NCBI GenBank assembly: GCA_012729675.1
Contig: JAAYCR010000025.1
Span: 1-64,000 of the forward strand
DNA: 64,000 nucleotides
Direction: 5' to 3'
DNA from: Phycisphaerae bacterium
GTDB taxonomy: Bacteria; Planctomycetota; Phycisphaerae; Sedimentisphaerales; Anaerohalosphaeraceae
Under the pieces are notes generated by a model. That model did no database searches. It saw only the letters and a list, made by a program, of their open reading frames with translations, and was not told the origin of the DNA. Shown here in pieces: positions 47,248 to 62,957 of the stretch. How positions within the stretch are numbered: position 1 is the stretch's first letter; each line of letters begins with the position of its first letter. The position numbers and the translations under genes were made by a program.

Positions 47248-48015
47248 ATGGAACAGAACACCACAAACGAGGTTGGGCTTTCGATTGTCATTCCAGCCTT
47301 TGAAGAGTCGCGGAAAGTCTGTGGGGATATTGCAGCCGCGTCGGCGTTTCTGACGGAATTTCCGGGCGGCGGCGAGATTCTTCTGGTGGACGATGGCAGC
47401 CGCGACAAAACGGCCAGCGTCGCAGAGGAATGCGCCCGCCATGCGGAGGTGCCGACGGAGGTGATCCGGCTGGGACGTAACCGCGGCAAAGGATGTGCCG
47501 TGCGAACCGGCATCCTCCGCAGCCGCGGCAGGTACGTCATGTTTGCCGACAGCGGCTGCTGCGTGCCGTATGACGAGACCCTCACCGGCATCCGGATGAT
47601 CCAACGGGGCGAATGCGTCATCGCTCACGGCTCGCGCAAAATGGACGTCAGCCATATCCATCGGCCGCAGTCCTGGTATCGCCGGCTGTGTTCCCGCCTG
47701 TTCCATTGGCTGGTCATCCACGACATCAAACGACTGGCCAACCTCACCGACACCCAGTGCGGATTTAAGATTTATGACGGCGCGATCGCGCGGTGCCTGT
47801 ATCCGATCTGTACGATTGACGGCTTCATGTTCGACATCGAGATCATCCTTCTGGCGATGAAATACGGCTATACGATCCGCGAGTTTCCGGTGGATTGGTC
47901 CTGGGACCCGGACAGCCGACTGCGACCCGCCCACGAAGCGTATAAAGTCCTGCGAGACCTGATCTGGCTCAAACGTCAGTACGGAGAGGTTCTCAAGTCG
48001 CCGTCCAAGTCATAG
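47248..48015 (+). CDS. Family 2 glycosyltransferase (dolichyl-phosphate glucosyltransferase-like)
   Basis: The 255-residue GT-A enzyme has LSIVIPAFEESRKV at the start, the metal-binding/nucleotide region ILLVDDGSRDKTASV, LGRNRGKGCAVRTGIL and a DSG in VMFADSGCCVPYDE. The Cys-rich TDTQCGFKIYDGA motif matches ALG5-type enzymes that load glucose onto polyprenyl phosphate. Lacking membrane helices, it would act at the inner face of the membrane and could feed the GT39-type transferase encoded by the next, convergent gene. AGGA precedes ATG 47248. Confidence 0.88.
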   Translation: MEQNTTNEVGLSIVIPAFEESRKVCGDIAAASAFLTEFPGGGEILLVDDGSRDKTASVAEECARHAEVPTEVIRLGRNRGKGCAVRTGILRSRGRYVMFADSGCCVPYDETLTGIRMIQRGECVIAHGSRKMDVSHIHRPQSWYRRLCSRLFHWLVIHDIKRLANLTDTQCGFKIYDGAIARCLYPICTIDGFMFDIEIILLAMKYGYTIREFPVDWSWDPDSRLRPAHEAYKVLRDLIWLKRQYGEVLKSPSKS

Positions 48016-48030
48016 AGGCGCGGCAATGCG

Positions 48031-50565
48031 TTATGGGGTTGGCCAGTCGCCCAAGCGAAGCAATGGGGCGGCCGCATCGGCAAAAACCAGCAGGAGGCTT
48101 GCTTCGGGACGAGTCTGGGAAAACGTCTCCACCGCCTCAATCGGCATAACCATCAACGCCGTGGTGAGGGCATCGGCCATGGCGCCCGGGGCGGTCGTCA
48201 GCAGCCAAACGGCACGTCTGTCAACGACGGGATGGCCGGTCGTCGGATTGATGATATGGCTGCCGCGGTCGAGTCCAGAACAGCTTAAGGTCTGATGGGC
48301 CAATTCGAGGCGGGCGAGTCTTTCGGCCGGATTGTAGGGGTTGCTCAACACGACCGGCCAGCCGTCTCTTTCCACCGGCGCTCCCATCGCCAGCACCGTG
48401 CTGGTGCCGCCGTGAACAAGGGCGCGGTCGATGCCCCACTCACGCAGGATATCCGCCATCCGGTCGAGGGCATAGCCCTTGGCCACGCCGCTCAGATCAA
48501 GCCCGATATTGTCGCGCAGCACGGTAACACTCATCGCATCAGGAGTGAGCGTATAGGCCCGGCCTTTTCGCGTCTGCTGCAACGCCGCTATCGCCTCCGG
48601 GGTGGGCTGACCGGTTTTCCAGAGTCGCACCAGCGGGCCGACCGTGACATCAAACGCCCCACCGGTCAGATCATACGCCTCTTCTGCGGCAATCAGACAG
48701 GCCATCGTGTCCGGCGAAACAACAATCATATCGCCCGCCGCCGCCGCGTTAATGCGCCCGATGTCGCTGTTGTCAATAAAACGGCTCAATTCCTGTTCGA
48801 GACGGTCGGCCTCATGAAACGCGGTGCGCGCCGCACGACCGGCATACGAGCCGTTGTCGTGCTGAATCCACATCTCAAAAACCGTGTTCATCGCCTGATG
48901 GCTGAATTTGACCAGGTTTTTGATCTCTCTTCGGCTGGGTTCGATCTGCACGGCGTGCACCTCATCAGATTTCAACGCGGCGGGGTCGGGGACAGGTTCG
49001 GCCTGTCCGAACGCTTTTTCCCAGAGGGTTCGGGTCAGAACGCCCCTCCATTCGACAGAGGGACGCAGCTCGATGGGGTCGTCAAACAGAGGAACATAAA
49101 GCTGCCGCTGCCCCGGCGGCGGGTAATCATAGAGCTTGCGCAGTATCTGCGGTTTTGATTCTGCATGACACAGCACCAGGTCCGGGTTGGGCTGCCGTCC
49201 ATCGACGGCGGCGGTATAAGCGACCTGCGAAAAGTCTCGCAGATACCACGGCAGCGGCCAGTAGTCGTGGCCGGGCGCGACGACCTGGATGTACATATTT
49301 TTGCCGTCCGGATGGGCGGCGGCCGCCTGACGGACAACCCGATCGATCTCAAACACATCCGGGCCGGTATGCGCATACGCCCACGGATTCCCCGGATGGG
49401 CGGCATATCGGCCATTCAGCAAAACCGACTGAACCAGCGGACTGGCGATACCAAACAAGATAAACACGGATATCATCACCCTTCTCGACCACGAGCCCAT
49501 ATCCCACGTCAACAGACGGTCGCCAGCCAGCCCGGCCAACAAGACCATCCCGTATAGAAAATTCAGCGTACACCAAGGGGTTTTGTAGGGAATCGCCGAA
49601 TAAATCACGGTCATAATCAACGTAAAAAACGCTAAAAAGACGCAGAAGAAACGGCGGTGCGACAGGGTTTCGTGCCGGCGGAAGGCGAAAAAGAAGCCGA
49701 ACAGCGCACCGGCGACGATAACATCCTCATTCCAAACAATCGGCTGGACAAACTCGATCCAGACCAGTAAATCCAGATACCAATACCACGGGTGGGCGTG
49801 GATGCTGTGCTGGCCGGCGCGACCGAACCAATAGGTATAGGTCAGCACCGAGTCCAGAATGCCGTCGGGATTCTGTCCAAAGGACGAGAAAAACAATGCG
49901 CTGGTCACAATGGCCGCCAGCAAGCCCAGCAGACCATTGCGGTTATACAGGGTAAACCGTGTCGGGCTTTCCGCCACGACAAGCGACAACAGCAGCGCCA
50001 GCAGAACCGCCGCAAAGGTAAAGGCACAGGTCTCCTTGGTCGCATGCATCAAGCCGGCGCATACCCCGGCCATCAGAATCCACCCTCGCCCTTCTGTACG
50101 CAGATACCGCCACAAGCCGCCCAGAAATCCGGCCGTAAATAAGACCAGCAGCATCTCTTGAATATAGTACCGGCTGAAATAGACAAACGCCGGCGACAGA
50201 GCCAGCAATACCGTCGAAAAGACCGCCGCGCGCAAACCGATCCCGTCAAAAAACAGCAGAGGCGTCAGCAGCAGAAGCGTCCCGATCAGCGCCGGCACAA
50301 GCCGCAGTGTCGTCTCGTCGATTTGTGTATAATGGGACTGGCCGCGAAGCTTGGCGACCAGCAGCGTCAGGTAGTTCAGTGTCGGACCGTGATATTCATC
50401 GGGATCGTAGGCGTAAAACCCTTCGTCCATCAACGTCCCGAATTTCGCGGCGTGAACCGCTTCGTCGGTGTGCATCGGGCGGGCTTCCAGTCCATAAACC
50501 CTGAACCAAAACCCGAACCCGATTACCACACCAAACAGTAAACATCCTATACGTGTCAACCACAT
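48031..50565 (-). CDS. Fusion: GT39-like membrane glycosyltransferase (Agl23-type) + ApbE FMN transferase
   Basis: This 844-residue protein joins two known families in one uninterrupted frame. Residues 1-540 form a multi-helix GT-C type transferase (MHTDEAVHAAKFGTLMDEGF and DPDEYHGPTLNYLTLL near the start; TIGR03663-like). From about 555 the sequence is ApbE (FSHQAMNTVFEMW, LTGGAFDVTVGPLVRLW, GLDLSGVAKGYALDRMADIL, HGGTSTVLAMG), which attaches FMN to Ser/Thr of electron-transfer proteins. Start ATG 50565 (TTG two codons earlier). It is the last gene of the 64-48 kb unit, seven bases after a lipoprotein gene. Confidence 0.88.
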   Translation of the reverse strand: MWLTRIGCLLFGVVIGFGFWFRVYGLEARPMHTDEAVHAAKFGTLMDEGFYAYDPDEYHGPTLNYLTLLVAKLRGQSHYTQIDETTLRLVPALIGTLLLLTPLLFFDGIGLRAAVFSTVLLALSPAFVYFSRYYIQEMLLVLFTAGFLGGLWRYLRTEGRGWILMAGVCAGLMHATKETCAFTFAAVLLALLLSLVVAESPTRFTLYNRNGLLGLLAAIVTSALFFSSFGQNPDGILDSVLTYTYWFGRAGQHSIHAHPWYWYLDLLVWIEFVQPIVWNEDVIVAGALFGFFFAFRRHETLSHRRFFCVFLAFFTLIMTVIYSAIPYKTPWCTLNFLYGMVLLAGLAGDRLLTWDMGSWSRRVMISVFILFGIASPLVQSVLLNGRYAAHPGNPWAYAHTGPDVFEIDRVVRQAAAAHPDGKNMYIQVVAPGHDYWPLPWYLRDFSQVAYTAAVDGRQPNPDLVLCHAESKPQILRKLYDYPPPGQRQLYVPLFDDPIELRPSVEWRGVLTRTLWEKAFGQAEPVPDPAALKSDEVHAVQIEPSRREIKNLVKFSHQAMNTVFEMWIQHDNGSYAGRAARTAFHEADRLEQELSRFIDNSDIGRINAAAAGDMIVVSPDTMACLIAAEEAYDLTGGAFDVTVGPLVRLWKTGQPTPEAIAALQQTRKGRAYTLTPDAMSVTVLRDNIGLDLSGVAKGYALDRMADILREWGIDRALVHGGTSTVLAMGAPVERDGWPVVLSNPYNPAERLARLELAHQTLSCSGLDRGSHIINPTTGHPVVDRRAVWLLTTAPGAMADALTTALMVMPIEAVETFSQTRPEASLLLVFADAAAPLLRLGDWPTP

Positions 50566-50571
50566 AGGCAA

Positions 50572-51336
50572 TTACTTGCCATAGACTTCCACTTCAACGT
50601 AGTGATTGTAGTCGTTCTGGTTGTTGCCCTGGCTCCAGAGCCGTACATACCGACCGCGTACGCCGCCGCAGTCGATCAGCTTGCCTTCTGAGGTCTCGAC
50701 ATAATTCTGGTCCGTCCCGACACCCTGGCCGAGCGAGTTGTCGTGGTCGTTATTGAAAACGGTCACTGCGTCGATAAACTCCGGATCGCTCGATACCTGC
50801 ACCACGATGTCCAAATAGACACGAGCCGTACTGTGGAAATGCCACGCGACAATCGCATAAATATCGCGTTCTTCTTCCAGGTCGATCATAACCCATTGTA
50901 CAAACGGCCCCAGTTCGACGACACTGGCGTCGGTGCCTTCTTTATCGCCATCGACAATCATATCCAGTTCGCCCATGAACGGAAACGGTTCGGAACTGGT
51001 GACAGGCCGATTCAGGGCGACATTGGTAACGCCTTCGGGCGCCAAAAACGGCGGCCGTGTTCGGCCCAGCGGCGCTTGAAGATTGGGAACATCAATATTT
51101 TCCGGCGTCCCAAGAAACATCGGTCGGGGCAGCGTCAGCGGGATGGGAACAAGGTCCGTATCCGCCTCCCCGACGGAAGCCGCTGGGGCCGCTTCATCCG
51201 TCTCAATAGTTGCCCCTTGGGCTACACGGGGGGGCGTGGGAGCCTGGGTTTCTGTCTGCGGATCCGTTTTCTTTTCGCACCCGGCCAATGCCAGACCCAT
51301 AAGCACAATAAGGATGCTGTATAGCACTTTCTTCAT
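50572..51336 (-). CDS. Lipoprotein with discoidin (F5/8 type C)-like domain
   Basis: The 254-residue protein has a signal sequence with lipobox LALAGCEKK, a Thr/Pro/Ala-rich linker, and from about residue 100 a discoidin-like beta sandwich (VALNRPVTSSEPF, IVDGDKEGTDASVVELGPFVQWVMIDL in pieces). Such domains bind carbohydrate. ATG 51336 follows GGAG; upstream in-frame codons are not a signal peptide. It lies between the permease and the GT39-ApbE genes. Confidence 0.8.
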   Translation of the reverse strand: MKKVLYSILIVLMGLALAGCEKKTDPQTETQAPTPPRVAQGATIETDEAAPAASVGEADTDLVPIPLTLPRPMFLGTPENIDVPNLQAPLGRTRPPFLAPEGVTNVALNRPVTSSEPFPFMGELDMIVDGDKEGTDASVVELGPFVQWVMIDLEEERDIYAIVAWHFHSTARVYLDIVVQVSSDPEFIDAVTVFNNDHDNSLGQGVGTDQNYVETSEGKLIDCGGVRGRYVRLWSQGNNQNDYNHYVEVEVYGK

Positions 51337-51436
51337 TTCGAGTGTCTCCGTAACAAATTTCGTTTTAAAGTTATACACATTCCCCGTCAATGGGAATCAA
51401 TGCCAAAACTTCCTACGATGTTAAATACCGAAAAGT

Positions 51437-52810
51437 TTATTTTTTCTCAAGCTCGACCTTCGGAGGCTCAAGCCCCATCTCGGCAGCGATCAAATAAACG
51501 GAAAAGCCGACAATAAAGGACATTAACGTCTCAAGACCGTAAGCAAACCCGATTCCCGGCAGTGCCCCAAGGATGCCGACCAGAAAACCGACACCCCATG
51601 CGATATAGCCAGCCAAGTTGATGCCTTTCCGCGGACCGCTCCAGCCGCCGCTGCGAATATAATCGGCGGTCATTGCACCGATGATCGGCCCGAACGAGGC
51701 GCCGATGAGACCGAAAAATCCAGCCAGATTATTAGCCACTCCCGTAGCGGCAAGAATCACGCCGACAATGCCTGCGGCCATGGTCATCCCGACACGCGGC
51801 AGTTTGGGGAACATCGTCGAAAACGAATTGGCCGCCAGAAACGCACAAAAACCCGTCGGACAAATGCAGGCAATCACAAAGACCCAGAACATAATCTTCG
51901 ACAATCCCCCGACCTCACCGATGGAACCGCTGAACGCGGCAATAATATCGAGATTGCCGGTTACCATACCGCTGGACACCGCCAAAGCAGGATTATTGCC
52001 CATCCCCCCGGCAATCGTAAACAGTGCAAACGTACCGGCCACCAGTGCCGCGACGGTAATCCCGAAGAAACCGCCCAAGACAACATCTTTCGGCGAACGG
52101 CTGTTCATCGTAAAGTCCGCTCCGGCAGCTCCGGCAGACGCAAAGAATCCCGCGGCCGCCTGCAGGGCGGCAAACGCTCCCAATCCCAGCACCGGTATAA
52201 TCGACGCGGAACGGGCAATCTCGCCGGCCGTTTCAAATTTGCCGATGCCGCCCATATTGGCAAACCCGGCAATCACAATGGCGACCAGCGGAAAAATGGG
52301 AATCCAGCTTGACATCCAGCCGAGCCAACTGATGCCGACGGCGCCGACAAACGCAAACGCCAGCCCCCATACCGCACACACCAGCCAGAAAAACCCCGTG
52401 TTCGGCCCTGCCTCGCTTCCAATCGCGTCCATAAAGAACGACGCCGCCGAGACGGTAAACACCGCGTGCCAGCCAATTTGCAAAAAACCCATTAAAAGGC
52501 CGGGCATTAAGATGCCGCCCTGAGTGCCGAACGTCGATGCGCCGACGACATACAGCGGCATACCCGTCTTGAATCCGAGCAGTCCCGGAACATAGTAAAG
52601 CATAAAACAGAACAACGCCCCGATCAGCAGGCCGATAAAGCCAGCCCATACACTGCCGAACTGCAAGGCCCCGGCCATCCCGGCCATAAACGGCACGGAT
52701 ATAAAGATACCCGCATACGACGGTGCGATGTTTTTGTACCACGGCGCGCGATTTTCCATCGGGTTCGGTTTGGCCGCGGTCAGATAGTTCGGTAAGTTTT
52801 CGGTTGCCAT
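51437..52810 (-). CDS. Cytosine/purine permease-like transporter (NCS1/CodB family)
   Basis: This 457-residue protein has about 12 membrane helices and NCS1 features: YAGIFISVPFMAGMAGAL, then LYYVPGLLGFKTGMPLYVVGASTFGTQGG (in pieces) and AGADFTMNSRSPKDVVLGG. The nearest known members carry cytosine or other nucleobases with Na+ or H+, so it may import a nitrogenous substrate. ATG 52810 follows AGGAGGT; 41 codons upstream in frame are not conserved. It sits between the cytochrome b-like gene and the lipoprotein gene. Confidence 0.85.
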   Translation of the reverse strand: MATENLPNYLTAAKPNPMENRAPWYKNIAPSYAGIFISVPFMAGMAGALQFGSVWAGFIGLLIGALFCFMLYYVPGLLGFKTGMPLYVVGASTFGTQGGILMPGLLMGFLQIGWHAVFTVSAASFFMDAIGSEAGPNTGFFWLVCAVWGLAFAFVGAVGISWLGWMSSWIPIFPLVAIVIAGFANMGGIGKFETAGEIARSASIIPVLGLGAFAALQAAAGFFASAGAAGADFTMNSRSPKDVVLGGFFGITVAALVAGTFALFTIAGGMGNNPALAVSSGMVTGNLDIIAAFSGSIGEVGGLSKIMFWVFVIACICPTGFCAFLAANSFSTMFPKLPRVGMTMAAGIVGVILAATGVANNLAGFFGLIGASFGPIIGAMTADYIRSGGWSGPRKGINLAGYIAWGVGFLVGILGALPGIGFAYGLETLMSFIVGFSVYLIAAEMGLEPPKVELEKK

Positions 52811-52836: not shown

Positions 52837-53493
52837 TTAGATTTCCATATCTTTTCTGATTCCGCTGCGAATCAGAACATACAACGTGAAAAGCACAACC
52901 AGTGCAAAGACCAACGCGCTCCAGCGATGCCATTCAAACAGCCATTCCTGCCCGTACGTGCCGAACAACGGGGTCATACTGACGACCATCGTCAGTGCAA
53001 CCGGCAACGACAGCGCCGCGGCCAGCCAAAAGCCGACTTTGGCGGCGGCCGAACAATCCGTCAGCCAACAGCCCTGCCGGGCCTTGCGATGGGTCCATAG
53101 CTCGGCCAGATGGTCGGCGTCCTGCTTGACAAAACGATACCGCTGGGCGCCGGTAATGACAACGACGGCGGCGCTGGCGATCAACACCGGTGCAAATGTC
53201 GCGTGCAGCATCAGCCAGTACCCCTCCAGACGTCCCCACAACAGCGGCGGCAGAAAACCGGTCAACAGCAATACGACAAAACTGAGAAGTCCCAAAAGAA
53301 ACGCCAGCTTGCGCAGCCGGCTGCCCCAGTTGAGTGTTTGTTCCAGAAACAGCAGTGTAAACAGATGCACTTTTTTACGGATCAGCGTCCCGATTGAAAA
53401 CCGCTTTTCACTGCCGCACGGAAAGAGCAGATGATGCAGCACAATGCCGCCGAAGACTGCCAGAAAAGCAATAAGCGATACGACTCTAAACAT
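52837..53493 (-). CDS. Membrane cytochrome b-like protein
   Basis: The 218-residue protein has four to five membrane helices with well-placed histidines (IVLHHLLFP, KKVHLFTLLFLEQTL, LMLHATFAPVL, FEWHRWSALVFAL), as in b-type cytochromes that bind two hemes. The ATG at 53493 overlaps the stop of the multiheme cytochrome gene (TAATG) and has AGGAGG upstream. I infer a quinone-reactive membrane partner for the cytochrome c. The exact family (b561-like) is not certain. Confidence 0.75.
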   Translation of the reverse strand: MFRVVSLIAFLAVFGGIVLHHLLFPCGSEKRFSIGTLIRKKVHLFTLLFLEQTLNWGSRLRKLAFLLGLLSFVVLLLTGFLPPLLWGRLEGYWLMLHATFAPVLIASAAVVVITGAQRYRFVKQDADHLAELWTHRKARQGCWLTDCSAAAKVGFWLAAALSLPVALTMVVSMTPLFGTYGQEWLFEWHRWSALVFALVVLFTLYVLIRSGIRKDMEI

Positions 53494-55325
53494 TATTGGG
53501 CCTCCTGTGCGCAGGCCCGCGAGATGACGACCAGGGCCTTGAGTCCATAAATCAGCAGCACCAACCCGATCAGACCGCACGCGGCAAAGGCGACGACCTT
53601 GAGCATCGGACGAAACACAAACGACGCATTGAACGCCCACATATAAAATCGGTCGATGCCTTGCAGTTCGACCATTTGAACAAACTGCTTGTCCCCCTGA
53701 ATGGGCGTATCCATCTCGACGCCGGCAAAGAAGAACGGCGAATCCGTGGTATGACAATCCGCACAGCTGCGCACACCCAGCGACTGGGCCGCTGGCCGCA
53801 CATCATGCGCCAACGGCCAGGCATACGGCGCCGCCGCGGGATGATCGCCGACCACAAGATCGCCCGTATCGGTCTGTTGATACAGCTTGCCGCCGGAAAT
53901 ATAGACAACCGTGCCGTCGCCCTGTCGCCCTGCCGCAAGCAAGCCAAGGACATCAGCGACCTGTTCTTCAGTCAGCGGTCGCCAGTCGTCCTCTCGCTCG
54001 ACCTCGACGGCAAGGATACTGCTCGCCGTCGCCAACACATCCGCAGGCGGTATCGGGGTCACGTCGTCGCCGTCCAGAATGGCCCAGAACGCCGGCCAAA
54101 CCAGATAGTGCGGGCCAATCTTGTCGTCGTCGCCCTTTAGCAGAACAGGAGCATACACATGCGGCAGCCGCAGGTCCACCTTGTGCAGACCGTGCAGGCC
54201 GAGCTTGTGAATCCGGGCGGTGCGCCAGCGGCCGACAGACTCCTCCGGCCACGTTCCGGAATGACAGGCGGTACAGTTCATTTTATCAAAATGGATCTGC
54301 GGGATGCCGGCATGGCGCGGAACAGGAGCGCCGAGCCGTCCGCCCTGCGGGGTCGGCTCATCCGCGACGCCGAGATGACACCCCTTACAGGACAGCGACG
54401 CAAAGCGGCCGTCGGCCGTTTCCTCGCCGCGTAAAAGCTTATGATCGACCCCGTTGCGATGGCAATCGGTACAGCCGATTCCCGCCGCCGAATGCACATC
54501 GAGATCGCGCGTCCATTCAAGCGATTCATCGACACGCAAATCCTGATAGGAATGACAAAAGTAGCACTGGCGATCTTGGGGCTTTCCGGCAATGTCAAAA
54601 AAGACCATCTGATCCTTGTCAAAGACGCCGTCGGCATAGGTTATCTCAATGCCGCCTTCGTCAAATTCCGGATCGAAAAAGCTCGACAACGCCGAAGCCG
54701 TTCCCGTCACGACGGCCTTGCCGCTGGCCGCCGCCGCCGCCCACCGGTAATTCTGCCGGGCCACCTGAAGCGCCGCCAGCGACGCATCGTACTTCGGGTC
54801 GGCGCTATGGCACGCCAGACAATTGATCTCGTATTGGCCGCTGATGTTCTGACGGAGTGTATGTTCCGGTTCGGTCGGATCCATCGCGGAATAGCTGCCG
54901 CCGGGATGATGACTGCCAAAGCGTATGACAAAATCCCACGCCGTCAGTCCAACCTGTTCGGGCGTGAACGTACCCATCCAGCCGCGACCGGAAACCGGCA
55001 GTTGCGTGCGGGTGCGTGCGTCGCTGAACATCCACGGTTGACCGGGCCGACCGGCGGGCACGTGCGGGTCGTGTCCGCTGAAATGCCACCCTTGGCTAAT
55101 CTTACCATAATCGTGGCACTCGCCGCAAGTCTGCTGGGTTGAAAACGGTTTCGGAGCGACATCCGTCGAACGGATGCGCCGGCCGTCTTCATCCAGCAGT
55201 TCCACCAGATGCACCGGCATACTGCGATTGCCGTCATTGCCATCGCCGAGGAGCTTTTCCTCCTGCGCCCGAACCACGGTCGACGCCGGCAACAGCAGGA
55301 CCATCACCATAAGTAATCGATTCAA
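53493..55325 (-). CDS. Heptaheme c-type cytochrome, membrane-anchored
   Basis: The 610-residue protein has a signal peptide (residues 1-20, MVMVLLLPASTVVRAQ) and seven CxxCH heme sites: CGECH, CLACH, CYFCH, CTDCH, CKGCH, CTACH and CADCH. A C-terminal membrane helix (VVAFAACGLIGLVLLIYGLKAL) anchors it. Extra histidines (FSGHDPH, RFGSHHPGG, HKLGLHGLHKV) could be distal ligands. It is exported and probably carries electrons between envelope enzymes and the membrane b-type partner encoded just downstream. No exact named family is recognised. Confidence 0.9.
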   Translation of the reverse strand: MNRLLMVMVLLLPASTVVRAQEEKLLGDGNDGNRSMPVHLVELLDEDGRRIRSTDVAPKPFSTQQTCGECHDYGKISQGWHFSGHDPHVPAGRPGQPWMFSDARTRTQLPVSGRGWMGTFTPEQVGLTAWDFVIRFGSHHPGGSYSAMDPTEPEHTLRQNISGQYEINCLACHSADPKYDASLAALQVARQNYRWAAAAASGKAVVTGTASALSSFFDPEFDEGGIEITYADGVFDKDQMVFFDIAGKPQDRQCYFCHSYQDLRVDESLEWTRDLDVHSAAGIGCTDCHRNGVDHKLLRGEETADGRFASLSCKGCHLGVADEPTPQGGRLGAPVPRHAGIPQIHFDKMNCTACHSGTWPEESVGRWRTARIHKLGLHGLHKVDLRLPHVYAPVLLKGDDDKIGPHYLVWPAFWAILDGDDVTPIPPADVLATASSILAVEVEREDDWRPLTEEQVADVLGLLAAGRQGDGTVVYISGGKLYQQTDTGDLVVGDHPAAAPYAWPLAHDVRPAAQSLGVRSCADCHTTDSPFFFAGVEMDTPIQGDKQFVQMVELQGIDRFYMWAFNASFVFRPMLKVVAFAACGLIGLVLLIYGLKALVVISRACAQEAQ

Positions 55326-55351: not shown

Positions 55352-56707
55352 TTAGATTGTGAATTCGTCCGGATTAAACTCCAACCAACTTCCTTTTTCG
55401 ACGGCTTCGTTGACCTTCAGTACCGTCACCGCCGTTTCGAAGCCGACTTCGGCCGGGCAAGTTAGTTTGGCCTTGCCGCGAATTGCATCAAAGAAATTGA
55501 CCAGATGCGGTTGATGGTAGGCCTCGCTCATCGTAATGGGAATAGTGTATTCGGACGGGCTGACCGAAGTGCGAAGATCCAGCACTGCGTCTTCGTCAGG
55601 CTCTTCGGCGATCACACCGGCGGTTTTGAGCAGATAGCCCTTGTCAACCCACGGCTGCCATTTGTCTTCTTCGACCCAGCTTTCGCGATAGGCACTGCCG
55701 CGGTTGGCCGCTTCAGAGATGACCAGTGTGCCTTGGTCGCCCATAAACGATTCATAGTAGCCGTTGGCGCTGTTGGTGGTCAGGGTCTGATAGAACGCCC
55801 GGACAAGCCCGGCCTTGGTTTCATATTCATAAATGGCCATCACATTGTCATACCATTCGTGGTTGGTCCAGTAGTCGATACCGCCGCTGGCCATCACACT
55901 CTTGGGATTCGCGTCAAGGAACCAACTGTAGATGTCGATCTGATGACTGCCCAAATCGACAATCGGGCCTCCGCCGAGACCCTTGAACCAGCGCCAGTTC
56001 CGGAATTGATGCATATCTTTATAGCCGTATTTGTTCAGCGTCGCCTCATCGATCTCAGCGCCCGCTGCCCACCCGAGGTCTTCGCAGGCCGCCCGACTGC
56101 GGTTCCACTGGCCGTTGATCGTGGTAATCCGACCCAGCAGCTTGGCTTCCTGAATATATTTTTCGTAGGAATACTGATAGCGCGGGTTGCTGCGACGCTG
56201 GTGGCCGATCTGCAGCAATTTGCCGCTCTTGCGGGCAGCCTCGACCATCCGGCGGGCGCCTTCAATCGTATTGCTCATCTCTTTTTCGCAATAGACATGA
56301 CACCCCTTTTCCAGTGCGGCAATGGTATGCTCGGCATGCCAGAAGTCCGGCGAGGCGACAATCACCGCGTCCAGATTCTCTTCTTTGTCCAGCATCTCTT
56401 TGTAATCGACGTAGGGCGTCCCCTTATGGCCGTGCGCGCGATAGGCGTCAAAGCCGCGCGACACGCGCGTCAGGTTGAGCTTTTCCCAGATATCACAAAC
56501 CGCAACAAAGCGAACGCCCGACTGCGCCCCCATCCTCAGAATCACATTCGACAGAATCTGCCCCTGTGCGCCGGCCCCGATCAGTGCGACATTGATCGTG
56601 TCCCGATTGCCGGAGGTCTGCCCCATCGCATGATTGGCCACAAATAAACCGGCTCCGATGGCGGCGGTAGATTGCATAAACTCACGACGATTTAAATCAA
56701 TTTTCAT
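55352..56707 (-). CDS. Tat-exported Gfo/Idh/MocA oxidoreductase
   Basis: The 451-residue protein begins with a twin-arginine signal (NRREFMQSTAAIGAGLFVANHAMGQ in pieces). A Rossmann fold follows (VALIGAGAQGQILSN) with the family catalytic region YCEKEMSNTIEGARRMVEAA (CEKE in place of CEKP) and GGGPIVDLGSHQIDIYSWF. It should oxidise a sugar hydroxyl with tightly bound NAD(P). ATG 56707 starts the Tat signal; the frame upstream is unrelated. Neighbours are the TIM/DUF1080 fusion gene (upstream) and the heptaheme cytochrome gene (downstream). Confidence 0.87.
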   Translation of the reverse strand: MKIDLNRREFMQSTAAIGAGLFVANHAMGQTSGNRDTINVALIGAGAQGQILSNVILRMGAQSGVRFVAVCDIWEKLNLTRVSRGFDAYRAHGHKGTPYVDYKEMLDKEENLDAVIVASPDFWHAEHTIAALEKGCHVYCEKEMSNTIEGARRMVEAARKSGKLLQIGHQRRSNPRYQYSYEKYIQEAKLLGRITTINGQWNRSRAACEDLGWAAGAEIDEATLNKYGYKDMHQFRNWRWFKGLGGGPIVDLGSHQIDIYSWFLDANPKSVMASGGIDYWTNHEWYDNVMAIYEYETKAGLVRAFYQTLTTNSANGYYESFMGDQGTLVISEAANRGSAYRESWVEEDKWQPWVDKGYLLKTAGVIAEEPDEDAVLDLRTSVSPSEYTIPITMSEAYHQPHLVNFFDAIRGKAKLTCPAEVGFETAVTVLKVNEAVEKGSWLEFNPDEFTI

Positions 56708-56729
56708 TGTTACTAATGCCTTTCCATTA

Positions 56730-58145
56730 TCACTCTTTAACTCTGATATTCCGATACCAAACCTTGGTGCCGTCGCGATGATCTTGAAAGCCGATAAACC
56801 CTTTGCGCGGCAAATCTTTATAGGCAACCGTAAATTTATTGCCTGAACCATCAGGATTTCGACCGGCCTCTGTCCACTCATCCAAAATGATAGCAATAAT
56901 CGGCTCATTATTCAAGACAATTTCGACCGCGGGACCGTTTGCCCGAATCGTCATCCGATTCCACTGGCCCGCCGGCCGCATCGCATTGACACGCGGCGCC
57001 TGGATATCAAAAATCGCCCCGCCGATATGCGGGGACACCGCTTCACCGTAAGAACCGTCGATTTGCACCTCGATCCAGGGAATCCACTCCCGGTCGCCGG
57101 CGCGAAGAAAGACGCCGCTATTGGTGCCCTCCTCAACGTTAAATTCAAAATCAAGAACATAGTCGCCGTATACAGCCTGCGTCCAGATGTCGCCGCCGCC
57201 TTTCAGCTCAAGTACGCCGTCCTGATACACCCAACTGTCTTTCTCGAAAACAGCGTTTGACAAATCATCTTTAAGCAGCGGCTTCCAGCCCGACGGCTTC
57301 AACGCCGACGCAACCTGATTAAAGTAAGCGACGCTCTGCCGAATCAGCGGCACATTGTTATCCCAACTGTGCTCGTATTCAGCGGCAAACGGCCCCTGAT
57401 AGCCCTGTCTATGCAGTTCTTCCAGAATACCTTTGATGCGATCCTGTCCCGTTCCCCAGACGACATCGTGTCCTTTGTCAACATCGAACTCTTTGATATG
57501 AACATCGTGAATACGCCCTTCGAACAGCTTCAGGCACGCGACCGGATCCAACTCGCTGCGTACCCAGTGGCCGACATCGGCACAGACGCCGATCCACGCG
57601 CTGCGGCCTTCCATCGCCGCCCGCACAATCTGCGGATCCCAATAGTGTGTCGGCTTCGGGTGGTTGTGAATAGCCAGCTTGATCTTGAACTCCTGGCACA
57701 ACGTATCAATCATCGCAAGCCGTTCAACCGGCGGCTCTGACACAATCACACGAACGCCCATTTCCTGGGCAAACGTAAACAGCCGGCGCGCCTGAGCTTC
57801 CGCGTTCGGAATATCAACGACGCCAAAGGCAATCATCGACACATTGGCCTCGGTCAGCTTGTCCTTGATCTGCCGCCGAATTTCGGGGGACAGATCGGCG
57901 TTCATCTGTGCGTTGATCTCCGGCGAGACACGCTGGCCGGGATAGGCCTGAATCCAGCCCAGCCCCAACTGGCGAACCTTGTCCACCGCCTCAAAAAAGG
58001 TAAAGCGGTTAAACGACCACGCCTGCACGCCCAACTGCCAGCCGTCATAAACGTCCGTTTTCGGATGCGGCGGTTGAGCGGAAATGGCGACCCCGGCCGT
58101 GATACACAGCATCCCAAGTCCCGTAAGACAGATTTGTTTCAGCAT
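56730..58145 (-). CDS. Exported sugar isomerase/epimerase-DUF1080 fusion
   Basis: The 471-residue protein has a signal peptide (residues 1-23), a xylose-isomerase-like TIM barrel (about 30-275: LGLGWIQAYPGQRVSPE, KLAIHNHPKPTHYWDP, VCADVGHW, AAEYEHSWDNN) and a DUF1080 domain (about 280-471: LELKGGGDIWTQAVYGDYVLDFEF in pieces, TNSGVFLRAGD, GFIGFQDHR). DUF1080 proteins include 3-keto-disaccharide hydrolases. With Gfo/Idh neighbours on both sides this fits oxidation of a glycoside at C3, cleavage and isomerisation of the keto sugar outside the cytoplasm. Confidence 0.86.
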   Translation of the reverse strand: MLKQICLTGLGMLCITAGVAISAQPPHPKTDVYDGWQLGVQAWSFNRFTFFEAVDKVRQLGLGWIQAYPGQRVSPEINAQMNADLSPEIRRQIKDKLTEANVSMIAFGVVDIPNAEAQARRLFTFAQEMGVRVIVSEPPVERLAMIDTLCQEFKIKLAIHNHPKPTHYWDPQIVRAAMEGRSAWIGVCADVGHWVRSELDPVACLKLFEGRIHDVHIKEFDVDKGHDVVWGTGQDRIKGILEELHRQGYQGPFAAEYEHSWDNNVPLIRQSVAYFNQVASALKPSGWKPLLKDDLSNAVFEKDSWVYQDGVLELKGGGDIWTQAVYGDYVLDFEFNVEEGTNSGVFLRAGDREWIPWIEVQIDGSYGEAVSPHIGGAIFDIQAPRVNAMRPAGQWNRMTIRANGPAVEIVLNNEPIIAIILDEWTEAGRNPDGSGNKFTVAYKDLPRKGFIGFQDHRDGTKVWYRNIRVKE

Positions 58146-58163
58146 ATCCGACTCCCGTTTGCG

Positions 58164-59534
58164 TTACAGTGTCCAGCCTTCACGGTACGGCGGGTTGACG
58201 TATCGGTTCAGTTCCGGAATGTTGGTCACTTCCATCTTGTCGCCGTCCCACACGATCTTCTCGCCCGGACGGAACAGGCACAAATTGCCCATCAGCACCA
58301 TTTCCGTGAACGGACCGGAATAATCAAACGGCGCGGACGGTTCACCGTTGCCTTTGCAGGCGTCAACCCAGTTCATTTCATGGCTGACGCTGATACGCGG
58401 AAGCGTCGGTTCGGGACGCCGATACTCGCGCATCCGCGAATAAGGAACCAACTCCGGCCGCTGGCCGTAGCAGCCGCACATCAGCTTGCCTTTGTCACCG
58501 ACAAATAGCACACCGCCGTCGCTGTCGCCCATGCGACGGTTGCCTTCCAACTCTGCCGGCCGTTCCGGCATAAGACCGCCGTCGTACCAGTGTACCTTGA
58601 CCGCCGGCATACCCTCACGCTCCGGGTATTCCAAGTGGATCACCGAGCCGAGCGGATAGGTTTCATCCACGCCGATTTTTCGCCACTTTTCCACAACATT
58701 GCCGGCGTAACTGCCCTGCGCACTGATGGGATATTTGAGCTTCAGCGCCCAGAAGATCGGGTCCATGATATGACAGGCCATATCGCCCAGCGCGCCGGTG
58801 CCGAAATCGACCCACGCCCGCCAATCCCACGGATGATAAGCACTATGATACGGACGAAACGGCGCCGGCCCGATGAATAAATCCCAGTCCAGAGACTCCG
58901 GAACCGGCATGGTTTCTTTCGGTCGGTTCATACCCTGCGGCCAGACCGGCCGATTCGTCCAGGAGTGTACCTCACGCACCTGGCCGATAGCGCCGTCCCA
59001 AATCCACTCGCAGATAGTGCGAATGCCCTCGCCGCTGTGCCCCTGATTGCCCATCTGAGTCACGACGTTATAGCGCCGAGCCGCTTCGGTGAGCATACGA
59101 GCTTCGTACACCGTCTTGGTCAACGGCTTTTGCACATAGACGTGCTTGCCGCGCCGCATACATTCCATCGCGATCACGGCGTGCGTGTGATCGGGCGTGG
59201 CAATAACCACTGCGTCGATCTCTCGGCCCATCGCGTCAAGCATCTTCCGATAGTCTTTAAACCGTTTGGCGTTGGGATACCGGCTAAACACCCCGCCGGC
59301 ATAGCTCCAGTCCACATCGCACAGCGCGACAATATTGTCGGATTCCATTTTCTCAAGGTTGCTTTTGCCCATACCGCCGACGCCGACGCCGGCAATATTG
59401 AGTTTATTATTCGCCGAAACGGAGCCATCGGCACCGAAGACCCGTTCGGGAATAAAGCTAAACAGTGCCGCGCCCGTCGCGGCCGAACCGAGAAAGCCGC
59501 GACGGGTCATTGCAGGGGTTCGTTTTGATTTCAT
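58164..59534 (-). CDS. Tat-exported Gfo/Idh/MocA oxidoreductase (second copy)
   Basis: The 456-residue protein begins with a Tat signal (MTRRGFLGSAATGAALFSF). The Rossmann start is NIAGVGVGGMGKSNL, followed by VIATPDHTHAVIAMECMRRG and the catalytic YVQKPLTKTVYEARML (QKPL). The second domain includes WVDFGTGALGDMACHIMDPI. It differs clearly from the copy at 55352-56707 and probably acts on another sugar or step. GGGGA lies before the ATG. The stop is 19 bases before the next gene. Confidence 0.89.
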   Translation of the reverse strand: MKSKRTPAMTRRGFLGSAATGAALFSFIPERVFGADGSVSANNKLNIAGVGVGGMGKSNLEKMESDNIVALCDVDWSYAGGVFSRYPNAKRFKDYRKMLDAMGREIDAVVIATPDHTHAVIAMECMRRGKHVYVQKPLTKTVYEARMLTEAARRYNVVTQMGNQGHSGEGIRTICEWIWDGAIGQVREVHSWTNRPVWPQGMNRPKETMPVPESLDWDLFIGPAPFRPYHSAYHPWDWRAWVDFGTGALGDMACHIMDPIFWALKLKYPISAQGSYAGNVVEKWRKIGVDETYPLGSVIHLEYPEREGMPAVKVHWYDGGLMPERPAELEGNRRMGDSDGGVLFVGDKGKLMCGCYGQRPELVPYSRMREYRRPEPTLPRISVSHEMNWVDACKGNGEPSAPFDYSGPFTEMVLMGNLCLFRPGEKIVWDGDKMEVTNIPELNRYVNPPYREGWTL

Positions 59535-59573
59535 ATATGGATCCCCATATTAATTGTCATAATCAAAACAATG

Positions 59574-62500
59574 TTATTTGACACTGAGACCGCGCATCGG
59601 CGAGCCGTCGGTGTTGGTTACACGCACACAAAAACCCCAATCCGAGGCACCTTGCGTGATTTTCAACATAAGCTCGTTCTCACCCTGACGAAGCTGAACA
59701 TCCACTTTATCTTCGCCTTGGGTAACCCCGCGCGTCACATTGTTACGGTGAACGACTTGGCCGTTGAGCCATACCTTCACCCCGTCATCGCTGCCAATCT
59801 CAAGGATGGCCTTGATCTCTTGCGGCGAAACCAGAACCGCACGGGCGTACGCGACACGGTCCGAACCATCCATCACACTGGCCAAATCCATCAGCCAGAA
59901 ATTCGACCGACCGCCCGAGGTGGTCATCGGCGTCCATTGTGCCTGTGCCGGATTCGTTTCCGGTAAAAATGCAAAATCAAAAAGCTCTTCCGCACTCTTA
60001 TTAACCTGCATGTAAGGTCCGCTGATCTGCCAACTGAGAATATGTCCGATTCGGCTCTCGGCCTGCGTGACAAGTCTCCGAATCTGCTGTCTGAGTGTAT
60101 TGTTGCTCGTCTGCTCGGAGATCGCCTGCAAGGCCGCAATCGCCGCATCCGGATTACGTTCGATCAGCCGCGTACTGATACCCACTACCGCCGCCTCGGC
60201 CTCGGCCCTGAGTTCGGCGTTATCCATCATTTTTTGAGCCTGTCGCAGAGCGCTCTCGGAGCTAAGTTCACCCAAAGCCGCCAGGATCGACCGCTGTTCC
60301 TGTAACCGGTCGGTCATGGTCAAGGCCTCGGTCAGTGCATTAACAATCTCCGATTCGGTCTTGCCCTTACCACTGGCCAACAAGCGAATGTATGTCCGGA
60401 ACGCAAGGACCTTATCCGTGCTGTCGGGGCCGGTCGTGGCTAGCGTGTGAATTTCATCAAAAAAGTCCATCCCCGGCCAATCCAGCATGGCTCGAAAGGC
60501 CGCGTCGCTGACGCTGCTGTCAGACGACGCCCGCAGGCGGCGAATGGTACCGACGGCCTGAGGATCGCCCAATCGACCGAGTACCCGCACGATCGACACC
60601 TTGGCAGCCGAAGACTCGGCTCTTTCTATGCCTGTCAGCAGCACAGTGGCCCGCCGGTTCAAGTCCGGAATTTGTTCGACGGCCGCAAGTGCGACGGCCT
60701 CAGCGGTCGTCCCGGGTTGATTCACCAGAAGATTGACCGCTGCGGGGATGTCGTCTTGAGTTACCGACGATTGAAGCGACCGGACAGCCTCTTGTGCCAC
60801 ACGACCGCTCGGATGCTGCGCCATTTCAAACAACAGTGCATTGGCCGTTGTAATACCGCGTGCCGGGATCGCGCGAAGCAATTCGACGGCCACCAGTTCG
60901 GTGTCCGCCTGACCGACCGTTTGACGAATGCCTCGTATAATCGCATCGGCCACATCGTCCCCCTGAATCTGATTCAGGGTCTCGCGCGCCGCATCCCGTT
61001 CGTTTCGATCCGACGTCGTCGCCGCCGCAGCTTTAGCCAAAGGCACCACACTGGAGCCATTGCCCAGCACGCCGATCGCCCGCAAGCCGGCGATACGAAC
61101 ACTCGCATTCGGACTGCTCATCGCACTCTCGGCGGCTTGACGTCCGGATGGATGTCCGTTAACCGTCAGTGCCGCCAGCAGGGAAACACGCGCCGCATCG
61201 GAAAGCCCGGACATCGACGAAACAACCGCCTCGATCACTGCCGGCTCCCGGACCTGGGCGACCAGACGAATCGCACAAGCCTGCACCACGGCGTCATCGC
61301 TCTTGACCGCCGCAGGCAGCAACTGGCCGAATCGCGTGCGACCGGCCTGTGAAATACCCGTCAGTGCCGCAACACGAATCAGAGACGGATTATCCGCCTT
61401 ATATAGTTCTTCATAAAGAATCATCGCCTGGGCGGTATTGCCGTCAGCCAACAAATTGTCCGCACATACAACCAGAGCTTCTAGCCGATACGGCTGAAGA
61501 TCCGTTGCAAACGATGCCCTCAATTCCCGCAGTGCCGTCCCGGCCTGCGGCGTCCCGATCGCACCCAACGCTTGCACCGCCGCTTTGGCGGCAGGCTTGT
61601 CCGACGCCGCCGCGATACGACCCAGCGGGGCGACCGCATCCTTGCTGCGTCGCCTACCCAGCGACGAGATAAGCCCGATTTTTGAGTTCGTTTCCGACGC
61701 CTGATTGAGCTTTCTGAGCAGCGCCGTATCGACCGCAGCGTCCGGAATCCGCTCAAGGGCATAACGCGCCATATGTTCGGTGTCAAGGGTATCCAACAGT
61801 GCCGTCAGCGCAGGCACGGACACGCCCGTCCCGATCACGCTTAACTCACGACAGACAAAATCCTGCACCGCTCGATTGGACTCGGCGGACAACAAGGGCA
61901 GCAGCAAACGCTCAATCGCCAGCAGATTTGCGGGCGACTCATAGTTCTGCTGGATGATGCTCTGCAGCTCAATCAAGTCCACGCGACTCCTGCCCCAGTC
62001 GTAAGTTTTGATCTTTTCGATCAACGCTTTAACCGGTTCGGTGTCCATCGCAGCCGCCGGATCACCAAGCGGTGTATCGTCCACTTTCAGATCGCCCAGC
62101 GCATACTGAATCCCCGCCAAATAATGCCACAATATCGGCGTCGTCCAAGTGATGTGATGCGTATGGCCCAGTGAACAGTAAAAAATCCGGCCTTTGCCGT
62201 AGGGCTTGATCCAACTGATGCCGGTATCCTCATCCTCCGGCACGACGCCGCGGACGTTCCGCGTCGCCGGATCGCTCATATCCAGACTCATCAGCACACG
62301 CTGTCGCTCGCGCGAATAAAACGGCAAATTCGTACGGTAAATCTCGTCGTTAACCCGAAACCCCTTGCCCTCGAACGAGGCCATCAGCGGATGATCCGGC
62401 TCGTCCAGTTTGATCGCCCACTCGCCCCGGTCGGCATTCCAGGGATGCCCCTGAAAAACCCCGCCCATCATATGCGACGCTTCGGGCCAGTCGGGAAAGT

Positions 62501-62924
62501 TATCCGTCGCCGCGTGGATCCCGACAATCCCTTTGCCCCCGTTGACAAACGCCATCAGCGCCTCGCGCTGGGCGGGATTGAACCTCAAACCGACCGTATT
62601 ATTAAAGCAGATCGCGTCAAACCGCGCCAGCGACTCGGTCGAAAACACCGCCTTATCCTCGCTGTGTTCGATCGTAAAGGCGCCGGTTTTTTCGGCCATA
62701 ATCTCCAGGGCCTTGGCCCAATACGGAATCGACGTGTGGTTGAACCCTTCTGTGAGATTAAACACCAGCATGTGACGCGGCTGTTCGGGTTTAACGACGG
62801 GTTTATCCGGCATCGCCTGACGCATCTTCTCGATCTCCTGGTCCGACACCGCAAACAGCAATCCCGCTGGCACAAGCAGCGCCGACAGGACGACGATTAG
62901 TGCAACCTTGACTTTCTGACTCAT
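59574..62924 (-). CDS. Exported ThuA-HEAT-repeat protein
   Basis: The 1116-residue protein has a signal or membrane anchor (ALIVVLSALLVPAGLLFAV), a ThuA (trehalose-utilisation-like) domain at about 50-285 (HMLVFNLTEGFNHTSIPYW, GGKGIVGIHAATDNFPDWPE, SLGHTHHITWTTPI), a long helical HEAT-repeat region to about 930, and a C-terminal beta domain with DDGVKVWLNGQVVHRNN and GENELMLKITQ. This last block is common at the end of large planctomycete exported proteins and may bind sugars. ThuA proteins bind or modify oligosaccharides. ATG 62924 follows GAGGT; an ATG four codons earlier is possible. Confidence 0.83.
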   Translation of the reverse strand: MSQKVKVALIVVLSALLVPAGLLFAVSDQEIEKMRQAMPDKPVVKPEQPRHMLVFNLTEGFNHTSIPYWAKALEIMAEKTGAFTIEHSEDKAVFSTESLARFDAICFNNTVGLRFNPAQREALMAFVNGGKGIVGIHAATDNFPDWPEASHMMGGVFQGHPWNADRGEWAIKLDEPDHPLMASFEGKGFRVNDEIYRTNLPFYSRERQRVLMSLDMSDPATRNVRGVVPEDEDTGISWIKPYGKGRIFYCSLGHTHHITWTTPILWHYLAGIQYALGDLKVDDTPLGDPAAAMDTEPVKALIEKIKTYDWGRSRVDLIELQSIIQQNYESPANLLAIERLLLPLLSAESNRAVQDFVCRELSVIGTGVSVPALTALLDTLDTEHMARYALERIPDAAVDTALLRKLNQASETNSKIGLISSLGRRRSKDAVAPLGRIAAASDKPAAKAAVQALGAIGTPQAGTALRELRASFATDLQPYRLEALVVCADNLLADGNTAQAMILYEELYKADNPSLIRVAALTGISQAGRTRFGQLLPAAVKSDDAVVQACAIRLVAQVREPAVIEAVVSSMSGLSDAARVSLLAALTVNGHPSGRQAAESAMSSPNASVRIAGLRAIGVLGNGSSVVPLAKAAAATTSDRNERDAARETLNQIQGDDVADAIIRGIRQTVGQADTELVAVELLRAIPARGITTANALLFEMAQHPSGRVAQEAVRSLQSSVTQDDIPAAVNLLVNQPGTTAEAVALAAVEQIPDLNRRATVLLTGIERAESSAAKVSIVRVLGRLGDPQAVGTIRRLRASSDSSVSDAAFRAMLDWPGMDFFDEIHTLATTGPDSTDKVLAFRTYIRLLASGKGKTESEIVNALTEALTMTDRLQEQRSILAALGELSSESALRQAQKMMDNAELRAEAEAAVVGISTRLIERNPDAAIAALQAISEQTSNNTLRQQIRRLVTQAESRIGHILSWQISGPYMQVNKSAEELFDFAFLPETNPAQAQWTPMTTSGGRSNFWLMDLASVMDGSDRVAYARAVLVSPQEIKAILEIGSDDGVKVWLNGQVVHRNNVTRGVTQGEDKVDVQLRQGENELMLKITQGASDWGFCVRVTNTDGSPMRGLSVK

Positions 62925-62957
62925 ATCTGACCTCATTTCGTAAAAAGTAGTTATGTA

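Follow-up and report, generated by a model that had tools for sequence, protein, structure and literature searches.

An Agl23-type glycosyltransferase fused to an ApbE flavin transferase within a conserved redox operon

Why should an enzyme that would handle lipid-linked sugars share one polypeptide with an enzyme that attaches flavin, and what might such a protein modify? The question is raised by a gene at 48031-50565 in a 64,000-nucleotide stretch of contig JAAYCR010000025.1 from a Phycisphaerae bacterium (assembly GCA_012729675.1), hereafter the window; the host genome comprises 2,799,707 bases in 96 contigs and is 99.92% complete. A sequence-only reading had proposed that one uninterrupted frame encodes an Agl23-type transferase together with a complete ApbE domain, and both parts of that proposal are borne out. 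The frame has 844 codons and lies on the minus strand, a point left unstated in that reading; it runs from an ATG at 50565, with an alternative TTG upstream at 50571, to a stop at 48031-48033, and the plus-strand reading of the same interval is broken by stops. Residues 11-448 (49222-50535, minus strand) match the Agl23 family TIGR03663 at 178.8 bits, over a curated cut-off of 126.25, and residues 559-819 (48109-48891, minus strand) match the ApbE family PF02424 at 174.4 bits, against a cut-off of 25.6, over positions 1-258 of the 266 in the profile. The Agl23 domain carries the motifs RPMHxDE and WPxPWYLR, the first of which lies in the first large loop and is invariant, apart from x, in 13 of 13 fused proteins. 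Between 48900 and 48990, where a missed stop had been suspected, the assembled sequence of this frame has no stop codon. Neither the Agl23 part nor the ApbE part is a new family; what is new to us is their union, together with a shortened active-site loop in ApbE, an absent export signal and the orphan status of an enzyme with no matched acceptor.

An AlphaFold2 model of the fusion, predicted from 90 of the 146 available alignment rows, has a mean pLDDT of 92.4, with the linker at residues 528-546 below 50. Both the model and family hydropathy indicate 11 membrane helices, and the short loops that carry positive charge face the same side as the N terminus. The GT-C part aligns with AglB (3waj, Z 30.7) and with ArnT (5f15, Z 29.6 over model residues 5-521), and the ApbE part aligns with 4ifw (Z 34.5 over 293 residues) within an overall range for known ApbEs of Z 31-34.5. 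As in other GT-C enzymes, the first large loop of the fold holds an Asp-Glu motif, and the helix count and the positive charges suggest that this motif is external. In the predicted structure, the soluble C-terminal domain of the GT-C part superposes on that of ArnT and is followed by a flexible linker and an apparently intact ApbE fold. The C-terminal domain of ArnT is periplasmic; given this superposition, the ApbE domain of the fusion should lie outside the membrane.

Directly upstream of the fusion, on the minus strand, is a gene for an F5/8 type C lipoprotein (50572-51390; the ORF opens at a TTG, and the likely start is the Met of MKKVLYS at about 51336). Further along the same strand are a transporter (51437-52810; Pfam gave no match at 0.01, and 22 of the best 80 of 565 loci have a homologue), a b561-like membrane cytochrome b assigned by family match (52837-53484), a multiheme cytochrome c with seven CxxCH motifs (53493-55325), a Gfo/Idh/MocA oxidoreductase with a twin-arginine-type signal read from its sequence (55352-56707), a protein with family matches to a TIM barrel plus a 3-keto-disaccharide hydrolase domain (56730-58145), and another Gfo oxidoreductase with a twin-arginine-type signal (58164-59534), whose nearest family is the glycoside 3-dehydrogenases (603.8 bits, under the cut-off of 750). 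A GT2 enzyme of the polyprenyl-phosphate-sugar synthase type (47248-48015) is encoded on the plus strand, divergent from the fusion. Protein clustering of the window with 37 related loci, and of 80 named loci (the best 80 of 565), recovered the same gene set, consisting of Gfo, the heptaheme cytochrome c, the b561-like cytochrome, the transporter, the F5/8C lipoprotein, Agl23, ApbE and, on the opposite strand, GT2. The lipoprotein accompanies 71 of these best 80 of 565 loci, Gfo 49, the heptaheme cytochrome 44, the b-type cytochrome 43 and GT2 36. Among the 28 longer members of the heptaheme family, 25 have seven CxxCH motifs and 3 have six. The b-type cytochrome family matches Ni_hydr_CYTB in 25 of 32 members, Ferric_reduct in 5 and DUF4405 in 2; by these counts a DUF4405 or ferric-reductase identity is weaker than b561, and Foldseek returned nothing for this cytochrome at E 0.001 or better (the top match, at 0.069, was formate dehydrogenase N gamma). 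Bins with ApbE at the locus, among the best 80 of 565, are titled Planctomycetota (and Phycisphaerae), Verrucomicrobiota, KSB1, Neomarinimicrobiota, Bryobacterales, Melioribacteraceae, Bacteroidetes, Deferribacteres and, doubtfully, Actinomycetota, all of these names being titles of metagenome-bin records that may be wrong. A conserved Agl23-ApbE gene pair and operon spans several phyla, and the fusion is one of its forms. Gene order varies in places: several Verrucomicrobiota loci have a Gfo gene directly after ApbE, and in genome G038 (L085) ApbE is flanked by the Gfo and heptaheme cytochrome genes and is not adjacent to Agl23.

Tentatively, and with slightly less than even confidence, we regard the protein as an envelope-modifying enzyme of two domains, which arose when two translationally coupled genes in this conserved operon became fused. 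The GT2 next door would make a polyprenyl-phosphate sugar in the cytoplasm, and at the outer face the Agl23 part would pass that sugar to an exported partner, or assist in its flipping, with the F5/8C lipoprotein as the likeliest recipient. The ApbE part would take FMN from FAD and attach it to one of the module's components, where the flavin could mediate between the exported Gfo dehydrogenases, with their two-electron chemistry, and the heptaheme and b-type cytochromes, to which electrons would pass singly. The picture with the best support is of an envelope enzyme that adds both sugar and flavin to parts of an exported electron-transfer module for sugar oxidation; the donor sugar, the acceptor, the direction of electron flow and the side on which ApbE lies are what we infer. 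Across several phyla, a single operon, and at times a single polypeptide, brings together membrane sugar transfer and flavin attachment. Counting against this reading, at least 5 of the best 80 of 565 loci have Agl23 but lack ApbE in the flank examined.

The joining of a glycosyltransferase to ApbE had been called unusual, and it is indeed a genuine and uncommon fusion. An Agl23 match is present in 43 of 59 related genomes; the 16 without one include the congener G002, which is 88% complete. The two genes are fused in 15 of the 59 (G000, G001, G003, G014, G015, G018, G022, G023, G025, G027 and G029-G033, with the fusions of G015 and G029 cut by contig ends) and separate on the same contig in 27, being adjacent in 24 and 0.8 to 3.9 kb apart in the other three; the Agl23 locus of G011 is cut and was scored as neither. 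Frames with this pair of domains are found again in two congeners (68-69% identity) and in other genera (39-51%), which excludes a chance open frame. Separate genes in close relatives had been named as the sign of an error, and such genes exist, yet with fusions in 15 genomes, congeners included, both states are natural. In the set from named genomes, the best 80 of 565 confirmed relatives, we count 9 fused loci, 65 split loci and 6 whose examined flank has no ApbE; the share with ApbE (74 of the best 80 of 565) is inflated because the ranking used a two-domain query, so that the 59-genome survey, with which some of the 80 share genomes, gives the fairer count. The nearest named relative of the window's genome in the best 80 of 565 is the Phycisphaerae bin L111. 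A search for viral relatives found none.

The ApbEs of this operon form an odd subfamily. A Ser-His-Asp triad, with a Ser-His spacing of 16 by residue numbers, is described for Vibrio and Listeria ApbEs in PMC12052999. Among the operon ApbEs, Ser is present in 75 of 75, His in 71 and Asp in 73; the fusion has the whole triad (Ser763, His770 and Asp798) as well as the metal-site Thr802. In L114, L115, L142 and L150, part of them fused and part split, Asp replaces the catalytic His (DMIHP/DMIRP), and activity may be lost or altered; these 4 of 75 count against the envelope-enzyme reading. The Ser-His spacing is 7 in 70 of 75 operon ApbEs, 8 in 4 and 6 in 1. By comparison, the second ApbEs that relatives encode have a spacing of 16 in 22 of 22 readable cases, a common trait with no standing as a curated defining criterion, and one that the fusion, with 7, lacks. 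These controls came from 20 genomes and three congeners (L204 had no ORF and L209 a misplaced start), and they differ from the split operon ApbEs at the N terminus as well: the top 17-residue mean hydropathy of the N-terminal extension is at least 1.8 in 21 of 22 second ApbEs and below 0.9 in all 65 split copies from the best 80 of 565 loci, some of whose ORFs have start codons placed too far upstream and were scored without correction. By hydropathy, then, an export signal is present in 0 of 65 split ApbEs from the best 80 of 565, so these copies look cytosolic. That the split ApbE looks cytosolic while the fused one looks external counts against an envelope enzyme; either one of these placements is wrong or the acceptor can be approached from either face. 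Both placements would be possible if the acceptor were a Tat-exported protein, already folded, or a lipid-linked sugar, or if fusion genuinely altered the function.

A maximum-likelihood tree of 97 Agl23 parts required 4 changes between the fused and split states, compared with 13.2 for shuffled labels, so fusion recurs; the tree held 14 fused, 77 split and 6 uncounted sequences without ApbE, after removal of 17 near-identical rows from 114 and with the fragments L091-L093 left out. It places 12 fused sequences in a main clade that encloses one split clade, with two further fused lineages. The ApbE start Met and leader of the split L174 can still be seen in its fused sister L116, and in that lineage the split state probably preceded the fusion. 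A simpler history than ours would make the fusion neutral: the stop between coupled genes was lost a few times, and the halves work as they do when apart. The interchange of states on the tree fits such a history, as do the low-confidence linker and the coupling of the gene pairs, which in 18 of 65 split loci (from the best 80 of 565) show an ATGA-type gap. It also agrees with the lack of any slippery-site pattern; within the last 36 nucleotides plus stop of split Agl23, slippery heptamers occur in 10 of 65 loci with no common position, which gives no support to a programmed frameshift that would make a fusion from split genes. We nevertheless consider neutrality rather unlikely, since the two states apparently lie on opposite sides of the membrane and should not be neutral if the substrate is one-sided. 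One oddity of the tree is that L149 (titled Actinomycetota) sits beside L138 (titled Calditrichota) on very short branches, and one of the two bin labels is probably wrong.

What the ApbE part modifies bears on the envelope-enzyme reading most directly. The earlier failure to see a DxxTGAT-type acceptor nearby was reproduced: no window ORF of at least 100 amino acids matches D-x-x-[ST]-G-[AS]-[ST], and none of 10 window neighbours has an FMN_bind, DUF2271 or DUF3570 Pfam match. Across ten operon families, [ST]GA[ST] occurs in 9 of 444 sequences, against about 15.5 expected by shuffling, with no family enriched, and the strict acceptor motif occurs in 1 of 444. The motif scans of the window and the operon families thus found no canonical flavinylation site in the operon proteins, and the lack of enrichment counts against an envelope enzyme. 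Elsewhere in the genome, where the sequence-only reading had suggested looking, acceptor candidates do exist, though not with the motif it expected. Three FMN_bind proteins, nearest to NqrC, RnfG and a TPR-FMN_bind protein, carry AISGAT, AISGAT and AVTGAT; their motif reads [HV]A[IV][ST]GAT and has no Asp at its start, so an Asp-requiring scan would miss them. The genome also has two NQR2/RnfD (NqrB/RnfD) family genes, and neither DUF2271 nor DUF3570 was found in it. On contig C64 of G000 (L046:5693-8531), a TPR protein that ends in an FMN_bind domain is encoded beside a membrane iron-sulfur protein resembling NapH/NapG; the two may form a flavinylated electron-transfer unit of their own.

The only ApbE found in the 2.80 Mb assembly is the fused copy, and if it is the only one it would serve Nqr and Rnf too; the envelope enzyme may thus additionally act on NqrB/C and RnfD/G in this species. 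A stronger version of this idea holds that fusion moved a formerly cytosolic ApbE outside, where it would now flavinylate NqrB/C, RnfD/G and the TPR-FMN_bind protein, with the sugar transferase as a mere anchor. One ApbE facing several acceptors would suit it, as would the external position given to the fused ApbE by the model and the positive charges. However, a second ApbE is kept by 38 of 43 Agl23-bearing relatives, including 13 of the 15 with the fusion, and such a gene may have been missed in this genome. The radical-SAM locus that holds the second ApbE in G002 and G003 has other genes here, and the gene that adjoins it in G001 and G002 has a truncated counterpart in this genome, close to where contig C22 begins. 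About 127 bases at that end (G000 C22:1-127; L215, L216) recur exactly at the starts of C46, C76 and C11 and within C48, as if a mobile-element end breaks the assembly. Since the neighbour of the second ApbE runs into this contig-end repeat, the claim that the fusion is the sole ApbE of the genome is weakened; deletion and an assembly gap both fit. In the 59 genomes, second ApbE and FMN_bind go together (51 with both, 3 with neither, 1 and 4 discordant; Fisher p 0.004, ignoring kinship and completeness), and Agl23 shows no association with FMN_bind (Fisher p 0.29, likewise ignoring both). With G038, described below, also against it, we judge such a takeover of housekeeping flavinylation to be unlikely.

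The genome of G038, at 99% completeness, carries the operon, including an ApbE that looks intact, and has no match to a second ApbE, FMN_bind, NQR2/RnfD, DUF2271 or DUF3570. This suggests a substrate outside those four acceptor families, and the substrate of the operon ApbE is probably of a new kind; this genome makes the question directly testable. One such substrate would be a sugar, if ApbE placed FMN on a hydroxyl of the GT2-made polyprenyl-phosphate sugar and Agl23 flipped the flavin-sugar or transferred it to an external protein. We know of no ApbE that acts on a sugar, and we offer this as a proposal that is probably wrong. It would account for the co-occurrence of GT2, Agl23 and ApbE, for an operon without a peptide motif and for a Ser-His loop 9 residues shorter, and a lipid-linked substrate, reachable from either face, would reconcile a cytosolic split ApbE with an external fused one; an archaeal Agl23 moved a lipid-linked oligosaccharide in liposomes, according to PMC11182771. 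If the proposal is true, a redox cofactor tethered through a sugar would stand between the exported dehydrogenases and the cytochromes, with flavin attached independently of any peptide motif. Lastly, a sequencing or assembly error that joined two genes, as their separation in 27 relatives might suggest, is ruled out as the source of the fusion, which was assembled independently in 14 other genomes of the 59 and in 9 of the best 80 of 565 named loci, partly from the same genomes.

The envelope enzyme that we favour resembles several known systems and departs from each. With the ApbE / Ftp / FmnB flavin transferases (PF02424; 6NXI, 4IFW, 7ESA) it shares the fold, the Ser-His-Asp triad and the metal-site residues, but it is fused to a GT-C enzyme, its Ser-His spacing is 7 where theirs is 16, its split relatives have no signal or lipid anchor and its operon has no FMN_bind partner. 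Like Haloarcula hispanica Agl23 it scores over the TIGR03663 cut-off and has a GT2 encoded nearby, and Agl22 and Agl23 act in one pathway according to PMC11182771; the protein described here is bacterial, fused or coupled to ApbE and redox genes, and predicted to flip or transfer. ArnT, PMT and AglB/STT3 share the membrane fold and the Asp-Glu motif in the first large loop, and the C-terminal soluble domain aligns with that of ArnT, but identity in structural alignments is 8-16% and the ApbE domain is extra. ApbE is also found within multidomain proteins when fused to its own substrate, as in ApbE-DUF2271 and a trypanosomatid fumarate reductase (described in PMC8238504 and PMC12052999); there the partner is the flavin acceptor, whereas here it is a glycosyltransferase without an acceptor motif. 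Compared with the extracytosolic flavinylation clusters defined in PMC8238504, the window cluster has no FMN_bind, DUF2271 or DUF3570 acceptor, the split ApbEs have no signal peptide or lipid site (by hydropathy, 0 of 65, from the best 80 of 565) and the fused copy is carried by membrane helices. That large 2021 survey excluded any ApbE gene lacking a signal peptide or lipid site, a filter that would leave out the operon class by design and explain its absence there. Titles and abstract openings of the open PMC literature yielded no Agl23-ApbE or other glycosyltransferase-ApbE fusion; no word beginning 'glycosyl' occurs in the main text of PMC8238504, PMC11334425 or PMC12052999, and Agl23 does not occur in that of PMC8993221. 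Within the window, the region 55352-62936, with its two Gfo genes, the TIM barrel/3-keto-disaccharide hydrolase and a ThuA-HEAT repeat protein, likely encodes an extracytoplasmic 3-keto-glycoside pathway.
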